Shown here in pieces: positions 3,948 to 46,172 of a stretch of 47,452 nt of DNA. This stretch comes from a virus. The stretch spans positions 1 through 47,452 of the IMG/VR virus record IMGVR_UViG_3300032177_000019. One strand, 5' to 3'. The notes beneath the pieces were generated by a model. The model ran no database searches. It was not told the DNA's origin and worked only from the letters and a program-made list of their open reading frames with translations. Each line of letters opens with the position of its first letter. Position 1 is the first letter of the stretch. The translations under genes were made by a program, and so were the position numbers.

Positions 3948-4000
3948 TTTAGAAGTTGCTCAATCGGTTATAATGTCTTATCATTAGGAGGAAGAGATAC

Positions 4001-13119: not shown

Positions 13120-15483
13120 GTGACAGTTCAGCAAGGAAGACTCCTAGCCGTTAGCACAGGTAAGACTATGGCTAATTTTTACTTCGATGCCGTGGCTAGT
13201 GGTATAGGTTCCGTAGACAAGATTATTCATAACGGTACACAATTCATACGAATGGTGCTCCGAAGACCCAAACCGGTTACGGCTTACACGGGATCAGCTA
13301 CACGCACAACCGCAACTCGTTTTATAGACGCTAGTTATACCCCTAGTTCATCTTCCAATATAAGAAATATAACTGTAGGTTTTGGGAGTAAGTTGGTTAC
13401 TACTAAGGTTATAAAGATTTTATCCACAGCCGCTATAGATACCACTACTGTGGGGTGGACTGTTTTTACGAGTTTAACTGATATAGAGGGAGAGTATATT
13501 AATAACTCTTTTAAGGCGGCGGTAGCTTCTGTCGGGCAAGCAATAGTAAGTACCCCAGCGGGTAATCAGTTTCAGTATACCGTTAATGTGTCTTCTCCAC
13601 CGATAGATACTACGGGGAATGGTCTTCCTTACTGGAGAATAACGCACACGGGAACCACAGCGTTTGATAATGTTACGGAAGTTCAGATTGTACCGCCACT
13701 AACACCCACTATGTCTTATTTTGATACTAACGGTAATTTTTCTAGTTCTGTCCCCTTCGAGAAATCTAATATCCTAGACGTTTGTTACGATGTTCCTAAT
13801 AGTACTTTTTATACGATACGTTATAATGACGGTACTATCGGTACAGCGACTGTAACTCTTAACGATACTTTTAGTGACGTAGACGCCGGCACTGCATCCG
13901 GAACTAGCGGTTTCAATCCCTCTCGCTGGACGGCTAGTAACGTTAATACTCAGTTTTTAAGAGTAGCCAATAAACTATCCTACAACGTTTCTAGTGGCAA
14001 AGGACAGATAAATACTACGTTCTCGGTAGCTAATAACGTAGATATAAATTTAGATGTTGTTCCGACTACACTTACTAGTAAGAAAATGTGGGTGACTATA
14101 CGGGGTTTAGATAGTAATAACAATACTAGATTTAGTGAGGGTGTTGGTTACGATACAGTTTCTGCTTCTGGTGTTTGGTTTGCAACACACCTTTCTAACT
14201 TAGTAAATTCCACGGCTGCCTCCCAAATAAAAGAAATTCGTCCGCTATGGCACAACACGGCTTCCGGTACAGACAGCTTTACAGTTGTCTTTACAGGGGG
14301 TTCGACTTGGACAGTTTCTGGGACCCTGACTGGCGCTTTAACTAGCGCGACCACAGGTGTAGCATATACTGAGACAGTCTCCGCCACCTCGCCAATTACG
14401 TTTCTTATATCGTCTACGGCTGCGCCTAATATCGGTGAGCAGTTTACTTTCGATTTATTTACTGATAATAAGAAGAAGAACGTAACGACTACGGGTATTA
14501 TCGGATTTACGCGTACGGGTTCTAATTATACTACTAAGCAAGTAATTACTTCTCCGCAAACAGCAGTAACCACGCCTGTAACCGTAGAGTTATTTGGTAA
14601 TACTGACGCGTTGGTAAATATTTCTGCCGATAACTTCAATGTTATAACAGGCAGTGGTACTTTCCCGAGCGTTGCTGTATTTACAGTAGAGAAAGTTAAT
14701 GCGGCGGGAAATGTAGTTAATCCACCACTAATTTCTTCTTTCGATATAATAGGTGATCCAAGCTTAACGTATAATGACTTTTTGGATGGTCGCGTACAGA
14801 TAGCAAGTACAACTTCTGGGACAGGGGGCGGCTTTATATATCTTAAGGTTAATAATGCTCTATATTCTTATGCCAACAATGTTTCTTTAGGAACAGAGAC
14901 GGGTGGAAGCGCAGTAGCAACTAGTTTAGCACAGATAAACAAAGATGGAATAAGTAGTTTTGCTTGGACACATAGATCCACAGCTTTGGGGATTCCCTTT
15001 CTAACCTATCTAGAGTACGACGCTGGTTTAGATATGCTTCATTGTAAGACTTTAGATAAAACCACCCTTTTGAGTACTACATCTACGCGGCAGGTATTTT
15101 TAAACATCAGTGACTATAGTACTAATGCCTATAAGGTTTTTTATGATCAGAACGATTTCAATACCTTGTATTACGTCGATTCAACTAAGATACTTCGCGC
15201 TTGGAATTTGAACGATACTATTTCTGCGTTCATGGCCGTTAATGCTGAAACCATTACTCTTCCAGCGGGAACAGCTCAGAATACTAACGTAAATGCGGAT
15301 GTTATTAATGCGTGGGGTGAGGTTTTGTCGGGTAAAGTTGTAACCTTTGCGGTCACAGCCGGGGACGGGGCGCTTACTCCCTCCACGGATGCTACGGACG
15401 TAGTTGGAAGAGCAACCACGCAGTATACGGTAGGAAGCACTGTAGGGGTTTCGACGGTGACGGCGACCGTAACGGAGACTTAA
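13120..15483 (+). CDS. Large tail-surface protein with C-terminal Big1-like domain
   Basis: 787 residues from a GTG with AAGGAGG 5 bases upstream. The N-terminus (TMANFYFDAVASGIGSVDKI, IIHNGTQFIRMVLRR) echoes the 'body' modules of the 9226 and 10506 products. Inside lies a common phage structural module (DSFTVVFTGGSTWTVSGTLT, GVAYTETVSATSPITFLIS, NIGEQFTFDLF). The last 80 residues form a Big1-like domain (NADVINAWGEVLSGKVVTF, then DVVGRATTQYTVGSTVGVST, then TVTATVTET). This makes it the third Big1-capped protein in the cluster. The gap of 42 bases to the next gene holds only AT-rich sequence, an eight-T run and no convincing promoter. Function as an adhesin is inferred. Confidence 0.65.
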   Translation: MTVQQGRLLAVSTGKTMANFYFDAVASGIGSVDKIIHNGTQFIRMVLRRPKPVTAYTGSATRTTATRFIDASYTPSSSSNIRNITVGFGSKLVTTKVIKILSTAAIDTTTVGWTVFTSLTDIEGEYINNSFKAAVASVGQAIVSTPAGNQFQYTVNVSSPPIDTTGNGLPYWRITHTGTTAFDNVTEVQIVPPLTPTMSYFDTNGNFSSSVPFEKSNILDVCYDVPNSTFYTIRYNDGTIGTATVTLNDTFSDVDAGTASGTSGFNPSRWTASNVNTQFLRVANKLSYNVSSGKGQINTTFSVANNVDINLDVVPTTLTSKKMWVTIRGLDSNNNTRFSEGVGYDTVSASGVWFATHLSNLVNSTAASQIKEIRPLWHNTASGTDSFTVVFTGGSTWTVSGTLTGALTSATTGVAYTETVSATSPITFLISSTAAPNIGEQFTFDLFTDNKKKNVTTTGIIGFTRTGSNYTTKQVITSPQTAVTTPVTVELFGNTDALVNISADNFNVITGSGTFPSVAVFTVEKVNAAGNVVNPPLISSFDIIGDPSLTYNDFLDGRVQIASTTSGTGGGFIYLKVNNALYSYANNVSLGTETGGSAVATSLAQINKDGISSFAWTHRSTALGIPFLTYLEYDAGLDMLHCKTLDKTTLLSTTSTRQVFLNISDYSTNAYKVFYDQNDFNTLYYVDSTKILRAWNLNDTISAFMAVNAETITLPAGTAQNTNVNADVINAWGEVLSGKVVTFAVTAGDGALTPSTDATDVVGRATTQYTVGSTVGVSTVTATVTET

Positions 15484-17524: not shown

Positions 17525-19135
17525 ATGGTAGCTGTAAGTAGATTTGTGGAATTTTCGGTTACCTCCCAAACCTATGTTACTGGAGTGTCTACGGATGCTA
17601 CAGCTAAAGGTACCCGCGGTTATTTTCGCGGCACGGGACTAACTACCGGAAATGATGACTTTACCATTACTCTTAACTCTAATGACCAATTAGCAGTTGC
17701 TATTAATGGCGTTGGGCCCTTTACTATCACCCTGGCCTCTGGAACGGCGCTTGATCCCCGTTTTGTGGCCAGAGACATAACCTATAAGATTAATAGCGCG
17801 AGTTCGGACGCCTCGTTTGCATTCGCGCAGTGCGAATTTAGAAACGGTGGGTTGGTAGGGACTAACAGTTTTAACTCTTTCATAGTTAAGTCAGGAAAAT
17901 TAGGAAAAAATGCTAGTGGAAATACTGTTGCTATTACTTCTCCGGGCGGACGAGACGCACGAGCCACCCTGGGAATGGCTTCTTCTTCCGCAGCCGCAGG
18001 TCAGGACCAATCGGATTTAATAGCTTCTAGCTATACCGGTGCTGTCACTGTCTCTGGTGCTTACGGTGGGCAGTTTGACGACTTCTACACGGTAATGATC
18101 AGTAGTATAGAGACTGTCGGAACGGTTACACCCGGAGGTGGAAATACTTATAACGGTACAGCTACAGTCGGTGGCCTATATACAGGCGTGGCTGGAGATA
18201 GTTATACTGTAACTATAAGTACTACGGCTGGCTCTACGATGGGAGCCGGTTCGGGCAATGTGCCCACATTTACGGTAACCGACACTCCTGGCTCTGATGA
18301 TAATGCTAATCCAATAGAACTTCTATATCCCGGTGCTTGGTATGACATAGGTTCCCTCGGTGTACGGGCGAAGTTTACTGACGCGGTGTTTGGAAATGGC
18401 GATACGTTTGCTATTCAAGCCCTAACGGCCTCGGGTGGTACCGGTGCGGTAACAACTGCTAAGTATATCTGGTCTTCTACTTTAGAAGACTCGTCTAAGG
18501 CTTACGGTATTTCGGCTGTTACTACGTCTACAGTTGGTACACAGGTAGGAACTAAGGGCGTTACAATAGCATTTAGTAACTCCGGAACACTATCGGCGGG
18601 CGAGAGATTCCATATAATTTGCCGTGGTCCTCGTGCTACCAGTTCCAGTGTTACGCAGTTAAACTTCGGTAACGTCACCGTGTCTACAAACAGTGCTGTA
18701 AAGGTTGTCTGGTTCGAATTGATAAGTGGCGCGGTTTCTATGTCCACTGTGAAGTTTAGTTTACAGAATCACGGAACTTTTAGTCATCATAACGCTGGAA
18801 ATAACGATACCTACTTCCATTACGGAACAGTGGGCGGCGGACATAACGCAGCGGGGGCGGGCCCAACTACTAATAGTCAGGTAGCCTTCCCTGTAGATGC
18901 CACCGGTTTAGGAAAAGTTGTAGCCACGGATATTGACCAGGATATTCCACCTACCTATCTGTACGCAACGCAGAATAACCTAGCGGTTGTAAGTTCTGCG
19001 GACAGTTCACAGACGGTTGGTAATTATATGGGAGCTCTGGTCAGCGACTTTATCTTCTTAGCCATTCAGCTTGGCGCTAACGAAACAGGTGCAAACAGTA
19101 CAATGAATTACAGAATGTATTTTGATTTCCAGTAG
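17525..19135 (+). CDS. Tail structural protein with GxYTG repeats and DUF3383-like module
   Basis: 536 residues after a perfect AAGGAGG. The first third has the same module as the 7729 gene: NSNDQLAVAINGVGPFTITL, FVARDITYKINSA, a strand NSFIVKSG and a closing GRDARATLGM. The next section contains imperfect YTG-type repeats (SYTGAVTVSGAYGGQFDDF, then YNGTATVGGLYTGVAGDSYT), followed by a GVRAKFTDAVFGNGDTFAI strand typical of phage structural proteins. The C-terminal half is beta-rich and His/Gly-rich (TFSHHNAGNNDTYFHYGT). Likely a major tail or fibre component. It is the last structural gene before the second homing endonuclease insertion. Confidence 0.65.
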   Translation: MVAVSRFVEFSVTSQTYVTGVSTDATAKGTRGYFRGTGLTTGNDDFTITLNSNDQLAVAINGVGPFTITLASGTALDPRFVARDITYKINSASSDASFAFAQCEFRNGGLVGTNSFNSFIVKSGKLGKNASGNTVAITSPGGRDARATLGMASSSAAAGQDQSDLIASSYTGAVTVSGAYGGQFDDFYTVMISSIETVGTVTPGGGNTYNGTATVGGLYTGVAGDSYTVTISTTAGSTMGAGSGNVPTFTVTDTPGSDDNANPIELLYPGAWYDIGSLGVRAKFTDAVFGNGDTFAIQALTASGGTGAVTTAKYIWSSTLEDSSKAYGISAVTTSTVGTQVGTKGVTIAFSNSGTLSAGERFHIICRGPRATSSSVTQLNFGNVTVSTNSAVKVVWFELISGAVSMSTVKFSLQNHGTFSHHNAGNNDTYFHYGTVGGGHNAAGAGPTTNSQVAFPVDATGLGKVVATDIDQDIPPTYLYATQNNLAVVSSADSSQTVGNYMGALVSDFIFLAIQLGANETGANSTMNYRMYFDFQ

Positions 19136-19148
19136 GGGTTGATTTTAC

Positions 19149-19177
19149 TTGACATTTTCTCTTATTTATCCTATTAT
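19149..19177 (+). promoter_or_regulatory. Sigma70-like promoter for the second homing endonuclease
   Basis: TTGACA (19149-19154), an exact 17-base spacer, then TATTAT (19172-19177). The -35 matches the consensus and the -10 differs in one position. Predicted start of transcription is about 19184, inside the 5' arm of the hairpin at 19179-19201. In a one-way operon with almost no gaps, an internal promoter of this quality stands out. Confidence 0.75.
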
Positions 19178-19178
19178 T

Positions 19179-19201
19179 CCTTAGGGGGCACTGCCCTAAG
19201 G
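19179..19201 (+). promoter_or_regulatory. Hairpin overlapping the ribosome binding site of the endonuclease
   Basis: CCTTAGGG (19179-19186) and CCCTAAGG (19194-19201) form a perfect 8-bp stem with a 7-base loop. The 3' arm overlaps the Shine-Dalgarno AAGGAG (19198-19203) of the ATG at 19212. Read-through RNA from upstream can fold and hide the site. RNA started at about 19184 lacks most of the 5' arm and cannot. There is no following U run, so it is not an intrinsic terminator. Confidence 0.65.
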
Positions 19202-19211
19202 AGAAGAAGTG

Positions 19212-20015
19212 ATGCAGAGAAAAGATATACAGACAGAAGAGGTAGTCAGGTTCTATCAAAATGGGTTGATAGGGCGGGAGATCGCTGAGAAGTTAGGATG
19301 TTCTGTAACTCTGGTACAGCGGCGACTGACTAAAGCCGGAATAAAGATGCGGTCGTCTAACGACCGTATTACCATTCCTATTGATAAACACGTACTCGAA
19401 GAAATGTATTGGGTTAAGAAGATGCACCCTGTTGCAATTGGTAAAGTTTTTGGTGTACATAAAATGACAGTCACTAAAAAGATGCTTGAGTTTGGTATAC
19501 CTTTTAGAACAAAATCCCAAGCCCGCATAGGAAAGTTCAATCCGTTGTATGGGGTTGGGCATTCAGAAGAAACAAAAAATAAATTGTCTCAGCAATTTAT
19601 TGATGGACGAAGGAAGGTTTCTCTTCAAAACCAGTACGGTAATCCTACAAAGTATAAAGAGACTGTTTATAGGTCTTCGTGGGAAGCGGGGGTTGCTTTT
19701 TATTTGGATACCCGACTTATATCCTACGAATACGAGTATAGATCTTTTCCGTATCCGGCAGAGTATGGGCGTATTAGGAGTTATACCCCTGACTTCTATC
19801 TTCCCAACACCGATACCTATCTCGAAGTAAAGGGTGTGTTCCGCGAGAAGGATCTTTATAAGGTGAATAGCGTGATTGCAACACAGGGTATTAAGATAGA
19901 TTTTTGGGACGGGCCTAAATTAGTGGAGTTGGGGGTCATTAGTCCCGCCGGTAAGGTAATCATTGGTTTAGACGTCATTCACAAAGTTATAACTCCCTTA
20001 AAGGAAGACGAATAA
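19212..20015 (+). CDS. Homing endonuclease with PD-(D/E)XK-type nuclease domain
   Basis: 267 residues from the ATG at 19212 (a GTG at 19209 is also in frame, one codon earlier). Domain order: two helix-turn-helix-like segments (about residues 15-45 with GREIAEKLGCSVTLVQRRL, and 65-90 with PVAIGKVFGVHKMTVTKKML), a NUMOD3-type motif near 109 (FNPLYGVGHSEETKNKLS), and a nuclease from about 150. The nuclease shows SSWE, then YTPDFYLPNTDTYLEVKG near 191-206, which fits E...PD...ExK of the PD-(D/E)XK fold. DNA-binding repeats plus this nuclease indicate a mobile endonuclease rather than a restriction enzyme. Expression looks controlled by its own promoter and a hairpin. It shares one base with the next gene. 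Confidence 0.85.
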   Translation: MQRKDIQTEEVVRFYQNGLIGREIAEKLGCSVTLVQRRLTKAGIKMRSSNDRITIPIDKHVLEEMYWVKKMHPVAIGKVFGVHKMTVTKKMLEFGIPFRTKSQARIGKFNPLYGVGHSEETKNKLSQQFIDGRRKVSLQNQYGNPTKYKETVYRSSWEAGVAFYLDTRLISYEYEYRSFPYPAEYGRIRSYTPDFYLPNTDTYLEVKGVFREKDLYKVNSVIATQGIKIDFWDGPKLVELGVISPAGKVIIGLDVIHKVITPLKEDE

Positions 20016-20344
20016 TGTTTGTTGGCGAACGAGAAATAGTTATGTCTAAAGGTTGGATTGCTGAATATAAAGACGGCTCTGTCTTTTGTGAAGAGGACTG
20101 TCCTTGGAACAAACTACCTGATAAGAGAAACATAGCCCGACTTATCTTAAAATGGGAAGATAGGTTTTGGGAAATTACAGGTAAAGATAATTACACCGTA
20201 CCCTCAGTACGGGGTTATATCGACTCTCAAGGTTCGCAGGGAATTGATTCTAGAACCATAGGTTATTATGATACGGACAGTAAAGTTATACTACGTGTGT
20301 CTGAAGATACCGGAAGTATGAAATGGGAGCACGTGCCTTTTTAG
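20015..20344 (+). CDS. Hypothetical phage protein
   Basis: 109 residues if started at the ATG in the TAATG junction, which has AAAGGAAG upstream. A second in-frame ATG at 20042 begins MSKGWIAEYKDGSVFCEED, which looks like a natural N-terminus. The first nine residues may have been added when the endonuclease inserted. The sequence is globular, with a central DKRNIARLILKWEDRFWEI and a C-terminal beta part (SRTIGYYDTDSKVILRVSED, TGSMKWEHVPF). It resembles small hypothetical proteins common in phages. No function is known to me. It lies just upstream of the 2,220-residue protein. Confidence 0.65.
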   Translation: MFVGEREIVMSKGWIAEYKDGSVFCEEDCPWNKLPDKRNIARLILKWEDRFWEITGKDNYTVPSVRGYIDSQGSQGIDSRTIGYYDTDSKVILRVSEDTGSMKWEHVPF

Positions 20345-42838: not shown

Positions 42839-44935
42839 GTGACCTATAATCGTAACCTCTACAACAGTGCGCTTTACAATGCGGGCCGTTCGGAGGCCGG
42901 GGCTGCGATTAAGTCTCTTATATCGGCGCACACAGGTCCGCATATAAAAGCAGTTGTAGGCGTAAGTGGTGGCGTTACTTTCATTTCTGATTTCAACATA
43001 GTTGAAGGATCTATTAGTAAGCCACCTACTTCATTTAGATTCCCAGATTTATCGGCAATAGTTACTGCTATAAGAATAGGTACTGCTGATTTGGGAGCAA
43101 GTATTCATGGGTTCGCTTATAAGGATTTATTAGCAAAGATTTTCCCCGTGGAAACTATCCCTGATTTAGTGGCGTATATAAAAGCCTTAGCCTCTTCCGA
43201 CATTCAAGCTAGCATCTTGGGTATGCTAGCTGAAGCTAATCTTGGTGCGACTCTTTTTGTTGCTATTCATAATTTATCGGCAAGAATTTTTAGTTTTGAT
43301 GCTCCTACTTTATCTGCAAGAATAACTCCTCATTTACCCGCAAATTTAGGTGCTCGTATATGGTCTCCTTTAGATTTGTTGGCTACTATAAATTATCCGT
43401 ACTATTCAGAGTTACCGGCTAGTATAAGTGGGCATCTTGCTGCTAACTTAATCGGCAAAGTCTTTCCCGTTTCTCGCATACCAAACCTCAGGGCGTATGT
43501 TAATGCTTCTCAAAGTTCGGTAAAAGATTTAATAGCTTATTTGAAGTGCAATGCTTCTTCTTCTGGAGATCTTGGTGCTTCGGTAGCAGGAGCTCACGGG
43601 GACTTCGATTTAACGGCCATACTGACTCCTTCCGGAGCGTATCAGAATCTTATAGGCTATCTAACTAGAGCAACTGCTGCTTCTGCAAATTTACAAGCTA
43701 CGTTAGGCTTATCTATCGGTAACTCCACGGATCTTGCTGCAAGTATTTCATTTTACGGCGCCAAAAATATATCTGCTAGTATAAGCGCCCTTCCTCTCGG
43801 TGCAAAGGATAGATTCTTACCCGCCATTATACAGAGTTTAAATATTGTAGATTTATCTTCTACTATAACAGGAACAACTAACAGAGCAAATCTTGCCGCA
43901 AGCGTTACGTCCTTTCCGTATTTCCATGACCTATCCGCCTTCCTTCGCGCAGCAGAAACATATATTACGTCCCTATTTACAGTAAGTACTTTGGCGTCTG
44001 CGGACCTTCGAGCGAGTATAGGCGTACCTTCTTGTGCTGGCGGTACGGGAATACTAAATATAGCAGCTCTTCTTACGGCTAAAAATAAGGGCGATCTACA
44101 CGGCACAATTTCTGCTTATCAGCTGGCTAATCTTGGGGCACAAGTAAATACCACTACTGGGCTCTATTATTTTGATACTGTTAATATTTCGTACACGCCC
44201 CAAAAGATTCGTATAGTTCATCCCTACCTTGTCTCTGATACTATAAATATTGTATATGCTCCTTTCCGGGGTCAAAATCTCAATGCATCTATTATTGGCG
44301 ATCTACCCAGTGTTAATCTAGCCGCTACTCTGCGAGTTGTACGTGTACTGCCTAGGGTAATGCCTGTTACATCCAAGATTTTATCTGCGGATTTACGATC
44401 TGGCGAAGCACAAAATATTCAAGAAATTCGTTTACAGTTAGAAGGGACTTTCTTTGACTTTATTTACATAAATGGTACTAACCAAGCGTTTATAAGGGAT
44501 TATACCCAGAAGTGGAAGTTAAATATCCGTTCGTTTAAGGCAATCGCTGCCAATTTATTTGGAGATTTTGCTGCCGCCAGAATTTGTAGACTTGGAGATC
44601 TTTCCTCATTTGATACAATAGATGCCGCTGTAAGGGCATGTATAGATGCTGTTCTAGGCTTAAGTAGTCAGACAGACTTAGGGGCGTCGATTACCGTAAG
44701 GGGTGGTTTTGCTGGACTTTCAGCCACGCTCGGTACTATAAACATTTTTACAGATATTCCGGCTTCTGTAGGTAGGGTATTCCCATCCGACTTGTTAGCT
44801 TCAGTGGCTTCTCAGGGCGATTACGGCGCTCTGGGGGGTATTATAAGCGGAGTTTCATCTACCAGTAGCAACCTCACAGCCAGCATAGACCCTTACGCCG
44901 TATCAGATATAGGTGCAGATATTACCGGCATTTAA
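42839..44935 (+). CDS. [DN]LxAxI-repeat structural protein
   Basis: 698 residues from a GTG (AGGAGG 12 bases upstream, slightly long spacing). The chain is dominated by a short motif of the form [DN]-L-x-A-x-[IVL], such as DLGASI, DLLAKI, DLVAYI, NLGATL, NLSARI, NLGARI, DLLATI, NLQATL, DLAASI, NLAASV, DLRASI and NLNASI. It recurs more than 30 times with spacing of about 10-25 residues. Two stretches interrupt it: about residues 449-480 (INIVYAP, VNISYTP) and about 523-612 (IQEIRLQLEGTFFDFIYING, IRDYTQKWKLNIRSF). The repeat suggests a solenoid or fibrous array. I know no named family. It is the last gene of the tail block, and a promoter follows. Confidence 0.7.
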   Translation: MTYNRNLYNSALYNAGRSEAGAAIKSLISAHTGPHIKAVVGVSGGVTFISDFNIVEGSISKPPTSFRFPDLSAIVTAIRIGTADLGASIHGFAYKDLLAKIFPVETIPDLVAYIKALASSDIQASILGMLAEANLGATLFVAIHNLSARIFSFDAPTLSARITPHLPANLGARIWSPLDLLATINYPYYSELPASISGHLAANLIGKVFPVSRIPNLRAYVNASQSSVKDLIAYLKCNASSSGDLGASVAGAHGDFDLTAILTPSGAYQNLIGYLTRATAASANLQATLGLSIGNSTDLAASISFYGAKNISASISALPLGAKDRFLPAIIQSLNIVDLSSTITGTTNRANLAASVTSFPYFHDLSAFLRAAETYITSLFTVSTLASADLRASIGVPSCAGGTGILNIAALLTAKNKGDLHGTISAYQLANLGAQVNTTTGLYYFDTVNISYTPQKIRIVHPYLVSDTINIVYAPFRGQNLNASIIGDLPSVNLAATLRVVRVLPRVMPVTSKILSADLRSGEAQNIQEIRLQLEGTFFDFIYINGTNQAFIRDYTQKWKLNIRSFKAIAANLFGDFAAARICRLGDLSSFDTIDAAVRACIDAVLGLSSQTDLGASITVRGGFAGLSATLGTINIFTDIPASVGRVFPSDLLASVASQGDYGALGGIISGVSSTSSNLTASIDPYAVSDIGADITGI
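43040..44932 (+). repeat. Protein-level [DN]LxAxI repeat array
   Basis: More than 30 copies of a six-residue motif in one gene, with variable spacers. The DNA itself is not a simple tandem repeat: different codons encode the motif (gatttgttggctact, aatttaggtgctcgt, gaccttcgagcgagt), which indicates long-standing selection on the protein pattern rather than recent DNA expansion. Confidence 0.7.
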
Positions 44936-44939
44936 TTTC

Positions 44940-44968
44940 TTGACATCTGCTGAATCGTATCTTATACT
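44940..44968 (+). promoter_or_regulatory. Sigma70-like promoter of the clamp-recA operon
   Basis: TTGACA (44940-44945), an exact 17-base spacer, then TATACT (44963-44968). Expected transcription start near 44975, about 37 bases before the clamp ATG. It marks the change from tail genes to DNA-metabolism genes and suggests transcription by host RNA polymerase, as would suit early or middle expression. Confidence 0.75.
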
Positions 44969-44978
44969 TACAACAAAG

Positions 44979-44995
44979 GGCAGGTAGGTCCTGTC
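44979..44995 (+). promoter_or_regulatory. Small 5'-UTR hairpin ahead of the clamp gene
   Basis: GGCAGG and CCTGTC can pair as a 6-bp stem (one G-U pair) around a 5-base loop. It would lie near the 5' end of the transcript from the promoter at 44940 and just upstream of, but not covering, the GAGGAG ribosome binding site (44999-45004). It may stabilise the mRNA or be fortuitous. Confidence 0.3.
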
Positions 44996-45011
44996 AGTGA
45001 GGAGTATTTAG

Positions 45012-46172
45012 ATGAAATTCACCATTGCGGCGCATGCCTTAAAGCGCGCTCTGGACCGCTGTAACCAAATAGCGCCGGCTTCTTCTGCCATCGCAGAAGA
45101 ACGGACGGGAGTTTTGTTACACGTCGAGAGTGAGCGCGTTATTTTTATGGCTTCCGACGACACCATGTCTATTCGTGTGGAAGTTCCAGCGGAAGTTGAG
45201 GAAGTTGGGGAAGCATTAGTTAAATGTAATGCGGTAAGTAGTGCAATTGTGGCTACTTTTGAAGACCGTAGTTTTGATGGTACAGAAAATTTTGTGGTTC
45301 TTAGTACAAATAATAAGAACATACTACGTATTACGGGTAGTACAAAGATTTCTGAAGGGGAAAAGCCATTAAGTCACAGTCGTAGTTTCCCGCTTTTAAA
45401 TGCTGACTTTTTTAGTGAAACTCCGGAGTTTGACGAGGCCAAGGTCACGCATTTCCCGGCCTTTGCCTTTATGGATGGGCTATCTTTAGTTAGCCACGCG
45501 GCTTCTAAAGACCCTTCCAAGTTGAATTTCAACTGTATTTGCTTAACGTTAACCGAGGACAACGTCGTGTTTGCCGCTACAGACGGTATTCAAATTGCTG
45601 AATACAGAAAAGCCGCAAAGGTTAAAGGCCTGCGCGGCTCTTTTATTTTAGGCTTAAAATTTGCTACCGTGGCCGGTAAAACTGTAGACCCCAACCTTGA
45701 ATCCGTGGAACTTTATGTAGAGGATAACAATATCTTTGTACGTAACGGAAGTTTTACGTTAGTAGGGGCACTATTAAACACGAAGTTCCCGGAATACGGT
45801 CCATATATGGATGTTTCTTCTTATAAGAAGGCTGTATTTAATACTGCGTCTTTTTCTTCGGTACTGGCAGGTATGCAGCCCTCTGTGGACGCTAAAACCC
45901 ACCGGCTGGTTCTTGATGCCAAGAAGTCTGGAACGGCGATATTGTCCACTTCTAGCACCACAGGTGAGGCGGAGAGCTCTGACTTGGAAATTCAAACTCC
46001 TGAGGACTTTGATTTCCAGTTTAATAGCGTTCTGTTGCAGAATGCGGTGCGTACTTTCACCAGCGGTACTTTCAACTTCTATTTTGATAAGAAAGGTAAA
46101 GGTGTTCTTCTTCAATCCGAAGTTCTGCCGGAGTTTAAGACTTACCTTTGCACGTTAAAGAAAGTAGCGTAG
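45012..46172 (+). CDS. dnaN: DNA polymerase III beta-type sliding clamp
   Basis: 386 residues, against about 366 in E. coli DnaN. The N-terminus MKFTIAAHALKRALDRCNQI and the first domain (LLHVESERVIFMASDDTMSI, RVEVPAEVEEVGEALV) match the repeated clamp fold. ATDGIQIAEY near 187 corresponds to the conserved ATDxxRLA, and LLNTKFPEYGPY near 254 corresponds to LVDGRFPDYRR. The last residues, LPEFKTYLCTLKKVA, stand where DnaN ends in the MPMRL hydrophobic-cleft strand. Function is to ring DNA and tether the replicative polymerase. It starts at ATG with GAGGAG 7 bases upstream and is first in an operon with recA. The divergence from bacterial clamps suggests a long phage history. Confidence 0.85.
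   Translation: MKFTIAAHALKRALDRCNQIAPASSAIAEERTGVLLHVESERVIFMASDDTMSIRVEVPAEVEEVGEALVKCNAVSSAIVATFEDRSFDGTENFVVLSTNNKNILRITGSTKISEGEKPLSHSRSFPLLNADFFSETPEFDEAKVTHFPAFAFMDGLSLVSHAASKDPSKLNFNCICLTLTEDNVVFAATDGIQIAEYRKAAKVKGLRGSFILGLKFATVAGKTVDPNLESVELYVEDNNIFVRNGSFTLVGALLNTKFPEYGPYMDVSSYKKAVFNTASFSSVLAGMQPSVDAKTHRLVLDAKKSGTAILSTSSTTGEAESSDLEIQTPEDFDFQFNSVLLQNAVRTFTSGTFNFYFDKKGKGVLLQSEVLPEFKTYLCTLKKVA

Follow-up and report, generated by a model that had tools for sequence, protein, structure and literature searches.

A homing-type endonuclease gene in the tail operon of a jumbo-phage relative lies behind a predicted transcript-start-dependent Shine-Dalgarno hairpin

The window analyzed here, a 47,452-nucleotide stretch spanning positions 1 to 47,452 of IMG/VR virus record IMGVR_UViG_3300032177_000019, carries an endonuclease gene between two genes of a putative tail operon, with an intergenic gap of 73 nt ahead of it. 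This gap contains TTGACA, 17 nt, and TATTAT, followed by TCCTTAGGGGGCACTGCCCTAAGGAGAAGAAGTGATG, and the endonuclease leader is about 65 nt long. The relevant features, with the Shine-Dalgarno sequence abbreviated as SD, are as follows.

17525-19135, plus strand: upstream gene (open reading frame, 536 aa), taken as a tail or structural gene from its setting; source of the read-through RNA
19149-19154, plus strand: -35 element TTGACA (sequence and promoter scan)
19172-19177, plus strand: -10 element TATTAT, spacer of 17 nt (sequence and scan)
19177-19186, plus strand: 5' arm of the read-through hairpin, core 19179-19186 (sequence and folding)
19183-19184, plus strand: predicted transcription start, A or G, 6 to 7 nt past the -10 element (from sigma70 geometry)
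19185-19197, plus strand: alternative 5'-terminal hairpin of the local RNA, 19185-19189/19193-19197, SD free (folding)
19194-19203, plus strand: 3' arm of the read-through hairpin including the SD, core 19194-19201 (folding)
19198-19203, plus strand: SD AAGGAG (sequence)
19209-20015, plus strand: free-standing homing-endonuclease-like gene, starting at GTG 19209 or ATG 19212 (Pfam and profile)
20015-20344, plus strand: next gene, overlapping the endonuclease stop codon (TAATG); right edge of the exchanged cassette (orthologues and identity break)
44940-44968, plus strand: second promoter of the same type, ahead of the sliding-clamp gene 45012-46172

The endonuclease product gave Pfam matches to HTH_23 (just under the cut-off), NUMOD3, and Phage_endo_I, and a profile of four homologues matched T7 endonuclease I structures at 4e-9. 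Residues E158, D194, E205, and K207 (numbered from ATG 19212) were invariant among the homologues, and GTG 19209 aligned by eye with the homologues' ATG codon (MVQRKD versus VMQRKD). With a nuclease domain, intact catalytic residues, and DNA-binding modules, the protein has the makings of a free-standing homing endonuclease, and the PD-(D/E)XK nuclease named in the original prediction can be specified as T7-endonuclease-I-like. No relatives of the endonuclease were found in bacterial and archaeal genomes, and no near-identical match was found among named phages.

A search of other viral contigs returned homologues of both flanking genes. The 536-aa upstream product has homologues at 58 to 70% identity in six viral contigs and one MAG contig, with no Pfam or PHROG family name assigned to it. 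An endonuclease homologue occupies the site in L004 (the same as L010), L006 (a 296-kb contig), and L008/L009 (197-kb and 298-kb contigs that are identical in sequence at this site), and L002/G007 contains a partial endonuclease gene there; further viral scans for occupied sites returned no additional ones. The comparison with relatives lacking the gene, proposed alongside the original prediction, was thereby made: the site is empty in L003 (the same as L005), L007, and L069, and in these three relatives orthologues of the 20015-20344 gene directly adjoin the upstream gene. Such presence or absence at one site is the pattern of a free-standing homing endonuclease. L069 (WJJK01000099.1), a contig from the same group of phages, was assigned by binning to a Candidatus Altiarchaeales MAG and is probably a misbinned phage. 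In L006 and L008, extra small genes lie between the endonuclease gene and the resumed flanking gene. G007 matches the window at 99.9% identity for 7 kb from the end of the endonuclease gene onward, yet the C terminus of its endonuclease differs from that encoded in the window, i.e., it is a different allele. The endonuclease tree conflicts with the tail gene tree: L006 and L008 are 74% identical in the endonuclease and 62% in the tail protein, and L004 and L006 are 63% and 77% identical, respectively. The allele swap in G007 and these conflicting identities indicate that the endonuclease moves independently of its neighbors, and, judging from the sequences compared, the gene is mobile at this site.

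The near-consensus promoter that had been proposed for the gene is present at 19149-19177. With a score of 11/12, it ties for the best sigma70-type match in a scan of 10-30 kb, and among the matches with this score in that region it alone has a 17-nt spacer. In the whole window, two sites on the plus strand scored at least 11/12 with a 17-nt spacer, compared to 0.2 expected under a first-order Markov model, and both are positioned 35 to 43 nt ahead of a start codon; the other one precedes gene 45012-46172, which encodes a sliding clamp (PHROG 947; Pfam DNA_pol3_beta). The aligned -35 elements of the three homologous loci are TTGACA, TTTACT (L006), and TTGACA. A terminator between the tail gene and the endonuclease gene was considered and rejected, as our scan found no stem plus T-run in the gap.

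Consistent with the original prediction, the gap encodes an exact 8-bp hairpin, CCTTAGGG (19179-19186) paired with CCCTAAGG (19194-19201), whose 3' arm lies over the endonuclease SD; U19178-A19202 and U19177-G19203 can extend it to 10 pairs (19177-19186/19194-19203), so that the whole SD is covered. About five 8-bp hairpins are expected per window by chance, and 9 matches at 7 places were found; rarity of the hairpin in itself was therefore rejected as an argument, and the evidence rests on its position, i.e., within the 73-nt gap, over the SD, and divided at the predicted +1 (19183/19184 by sigma70 geometry), which falls inside the 5' arm as had been foreseen.

Folding of the two RNAs predicts markedly different states of the SD. 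In an RNA starting at 19149, pairing probabilities were 0.99 to 1.00 for 19194-19202 and 0.82 for 19203, with the anti-SD strand made up of the last base of the -10 element and 19178-19183. An RNA starting at 19184 is devoid of 19177-19183 and folds at -7.3 kcal/mol. To compare the two, the cost of opening the SD was computed for RNA beginning 60 nt ahead of the last base of the -10 element and for RNA beginning at the predicted +1; the predicted cost was 9.1 kcal/mol in the read-through RNA versus 0.04 kcal/mol in the RNA from 19184. The computation thus backs the claim that read-through RNA hides the SD and local RNA exposes it, with the refinement that the local RNA, in which the SD is indeed predicted to be open, retains a short 5'-terminal hairpin, GGGGC/GCCCU. 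Altogether, the folding predictions support the reading of the window leader as a switch that depends on the transcript start.

The three diverged homologous loci in L004, L006, and L008 gave the same pattern. The predicted cost of SD opening fell from 9.5 kcal/mol in read-through RNA to 2.3 in local RNA in L004, from 5.9 to 2.1 in L006, and from 7.2 to 0.4 in L008, so that the contrast ranges from 3.8 to 9.1 kcal/mol across the four loci and is largely stable to altered fragment ends and to a +1 shifted by 1 nt. As a control, 28 genes with the same promoter type in the same phages exhibited a median change of 0.04 and a maximum of 3.2 kcal/mol, and under most fragment choices none reached the weakest endonuclease locus; with a shorter upstream or longer downstream fragment, one did. 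That weakest locus is L006, with its poor -35 element, where the contrast drops to 2.1 kcal/mol with the longer downstream fragment and is matched by one control. When virtual starts were placed at the same distances in 760 genes, the contrast gave p = 0.003 for the window, 0.007 for L004, 0.025 for L006, and 0.007 for L008; these values are not independent because the loci share ancestry, and the four-locus Fisher value of 4e-6 is to be discounted on that account.

According to the pair probabilities, the SD at all four loci pairs chiefly within the -10 box or the next six bases, and the predicted start-dependent contrast arises because these partners are missing from the local RNA. The letters involved differ: UUCCUUA pairs with UAAGGAG in the window, UACUUCUC with GAGGAGGUA in L004, UAUACUU with AGGUAUA in L006, and a UUCUUC stretch with GGAGGAGG, in several registers, in L008. 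Folding predicts a stable stem over the SD in upstream-initiated RNA at four loci, and RNA from the proximal promoter, assigned by sequence with its +1 placed by geometry, would lack too much of the 5' arm for the stem to re-form. In these models the fold of the leader is kept across the four loci while its sequence changes.

We then weighed other explanations of this arrangement. One is that a pyrimidine-rich promoter pairs with a purine-rich SD by composition, with no selected switch. When the promoter region was shuffled by dinucleotides with the SD and downstream sequence held fixed, the observed occlusion was reached in 2/300 shuffles for the window, 41/300 for L004, 88/300 for L006, and 30/300 for L008. 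At three of the four loci, much of the occlusion thus survives shuffling, because any purine-rich SD finds partners in pyrimidine-rich DNA, and composition accounts for a good part of it outside the window. Read-through occlusion alone places the loci among the top 2 to 12% of genes; the unusual part is the contrast between the two starts, not this occlusion alone. The rarity of the window stem among shuffles, the Fisher value against the 760 genes, though not fully independent, and the predicted +1, which at 4/4 loci coincides with the first base of the inner hairpin or precedes it by 1 nt, all speak against chance pairing, which we consider quite unlikely. A somewhat less improbable, but still unlikely, alternative is that the leader forms the ordinary 5'-terminal stem-loop of promoter-proximal messages, which protects the RNA, and that it occludes the SD of read-through RNA only incidentally. 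Inspection showed a stem-loop close to +1 in several leaders of this class, those of the clamp genes of four phages among them, and in three homologues the SD lies outside the inner hairpin. However, the start position hardly alters SD access in other leaders (median of 0.04 kcal/mol), whereas in each of the four endonuclease leaders the SD is predicted to be buried solely when the RNA reads through. The two roles, RNA protection and SD switch, are in any case compatible.

Control might also be exerted mainly at the DNA, with the endonuclease or another protein acting on a promoter-adjacent operator, similar to I-TevI autorepression, and with the stem being secondary. The element ACATTCYATACTT is conserved just ahead of the -35 element in L004, L006, and L008; AGAACATTCT of L008 repeats part of the upstream gene's 3' end exactly in inverted orientation, a match found in 1/500 shuffles, and in L004 the element is the reverse complement of this 3' end as it reads in the relatives. 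This region (L008 6612-6680; L006 6618-6660; L004 5915-5935) is a candidate operator resembling a homing site. The ACATTCYATACTT element is nonetheless absent from the window, AGAACATTCT is nearly palindromic itself, and the inverted match lacks significance both in L006 and within L004, so an upstream inverted repeat was rejected as a general feature. Moreover, an operator leaves the RNA pairing unexplained, and we regard control mainly at this level as highly improbable.

The reading that we favor, and consider probable from the predicted folds, their retention at four loci, the control genes, and the mobility of the gene, is that a mobile cassette of a promoter, an RNA leader, and a homing-type endonuclease gene sits in the tail operon of a jumbo-phage relative and operates as a transcript-start-dependent switch. 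RNA reading through from the tail genes would carry an anti-SD strand encoded by the -10 element and the discriminator, and with its SD folded into the stem the endonuclease would be poorly translated. RNA from the local sigma70-type promoter would begin just past the anti-SD strand, form only the short 5'-terminal hairpin, and keep the SD open. Because the SD would be hidden in the one RNA and open in the other, the nuclease would be made mainly when the local promoter is active.

When this would occur depends on the promoter class. In two large genomes, sigma70-type promoters with 17-nt spacers were enriched over reversed controls, which by sequence makes them a real class there. Genes downstream of such promoters include those for the clamp, thymidylate synthase, a DnaQ-like exonuclease, and a clamp-loader/RuvB-like ATPase, the last with a phage sigma factor gene after it. 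In the structural block of G006, the endonuclease promoter was the only strong one of this type seen. Many sigma70-like promoters in G003 and G006 (L027-L056) have GGGGA and further fixed bases in common within their 17-nt spacer (TTGACAnnnGGGGAnnATnnCnTATNAT; examples at G006:2407, 50368, and 76981-77009), and AGGGGA is enriched in intergenic DNA (38 regions versus 14 expected); the endonuclease promoters have pyrimidine-rich spacers instead. In the clamp-gene leaders of four phages (window 44969-45011; G006 near 112,660; G003 near 204,890; G004 near 13,130), a stem-loop follows soon after the predicted +1 with the SD outside, and several other leaders of the class are alike; these stem-loops possibly provide general 5'-end protection.

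The open RNA would thus be driven not by a T4-type late promoter but by TTGACA-17-TATTAT, as at clamp and replication-type genes. Since a promoter like those of replication genes lies here within a tail operon, the timing may be inverted relative to T4; judged from the promoter type, the endonuclease would be on with the replication genes and off on tail read-through, when tail messages dominate. Searching by k-mer enrichment, we found no distinct late-promoter motif but, tRNA sequence aside, mainly sigma70-type elements and AGGGGA, and so we only infer the late timing of the tail operon. The inverted timing stays tentative also because a TATNAT-type element occurs at a structural gene and because sigma and RNA polymerase-like proteins are phage encoded. 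The former, a conserved TTGC...TATNATT(A)GGAGG-like element, lies ahead of an apparently orthologous structural-block gene of 213 to 217 aa in six phages (window 3948-4000; G006:156905; G003:247521; G004:78373; G001:35699; G002:22569); its -10-like box is a few bases from the SD, and it is possibly a structural-gene promoter with an extremely short leader. As for the latter, the phage RNA polymerase protein has beta-like and beta'-like matches in a single 1054-aa frame, and the phage sigma factor adjoins the clamp-loader/RuvB-like gene (RNA polymerase-like and sigma genes at G006:26734-29898 and 44073-44909 and at G003:124232-124516 and 140541-141341). The stronger proposition, that the switch reverses every T4 case, with translation from an early host-type promoter only and late tail read-through silenced, and that it is separate from that of T4 and kept by selection despite its rewritten sequence, is possible but rather doubtful. 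If true, gating of invading endonucleases by the transcript start extends to phages that lack T4 late transcription.

The logic of an SD hairpin that depends on the transcript start is already known, and the likeness to T4 I-TevI put forward in the original prediction was borne out. Two reviews describe hairpins over the SD that are relieved by proximal promoters for I-TevI, I-TevII, I-TevIII, segB, and Aeh1 mobE (PMC2988022, PMC3014915), and the hairpin-controlled genes of T4 are late genes on early messages, as reviewed (PMC2988022). As predicted for the window, a read-through hairpin buries the endonuclease SD of I-TevI (td intron), I-TevII, and I-TevIII, and for I-TevI a promoter immediately upstream yields RNA short of enough of the stem (PMC2988022). 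Compared to I-TevI, however, the window gene is free-standing, encodes a T7-endonuclease-I-type nuclease rather than a GIY-YIG or HNH enzyme, has a sigma70-type instead of a T4 middle or late promoter, lies within a tail operon rather than in early or middle units, and belongs to an unrelated phage group. Aeh1 mobE and T4 segB are likewise free-standing endonuclease genes with an SD-sequestering hairpin and a nearby promoter (PMC2988022, PMC3014915), but they encode HNH or GIY-YIG enzymes in T4-like phages and use late promoters, with apparently opposite timing. The leader of T4 gene e (lysozyme) also hides the SD in a long early RNA and not in RNA from the proximal late promoters (PMC3014915), but the gene is non-mobile and, with its late promoters, of opposite inferred timing.

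A distant relative of the nuclease, with about 30% identity over 137 aa, is found in the T4-like phages IME341, EcWhh-1, F25, and HEMP5. In its leader (L070 1329-1371, Enterobacteria phage IME341; L072-L074), the SD would be buried by a perfect 12-bp hairpin, TTCTCCATGAAT/ATTCATGGAGAA, omission of the 5' arm lowers the predicted cost of opening from 14 to about 3 kcal/mol, and the hairpin loop holds the late-promoter-like TATATAAA; from this model it looks like a T4-type late-promoter switch. The IME341-type gene thus resembles the window gene in its nuclease domain and SD-burying hairpin but differs in that TATATAAA in the loop takes the place of a sigma70-type promoter, in its unrelated leader, in its N terminus, and in its insertion in a tRNA region. 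In the literature covered, start-dependent SD hairpins on homing endonucleases were described from T4-like phages; what differs here is the nuclease type, the promoter class, the phage group, and possibly the timing. That this design recurs in jumbo phages unrelated to these, built on a different nuclease domain and promoter class and with leaders of little common sequence, suggests that endonucleases residing in phage operons repeatedly need to have their translation from read-through RNA shut off. The reversal of timing relative to T4, if true, would separate two explanations of these hairpins, a need for late expression and the keeping of the endonuclease off the messages of the operon that it interrupts.
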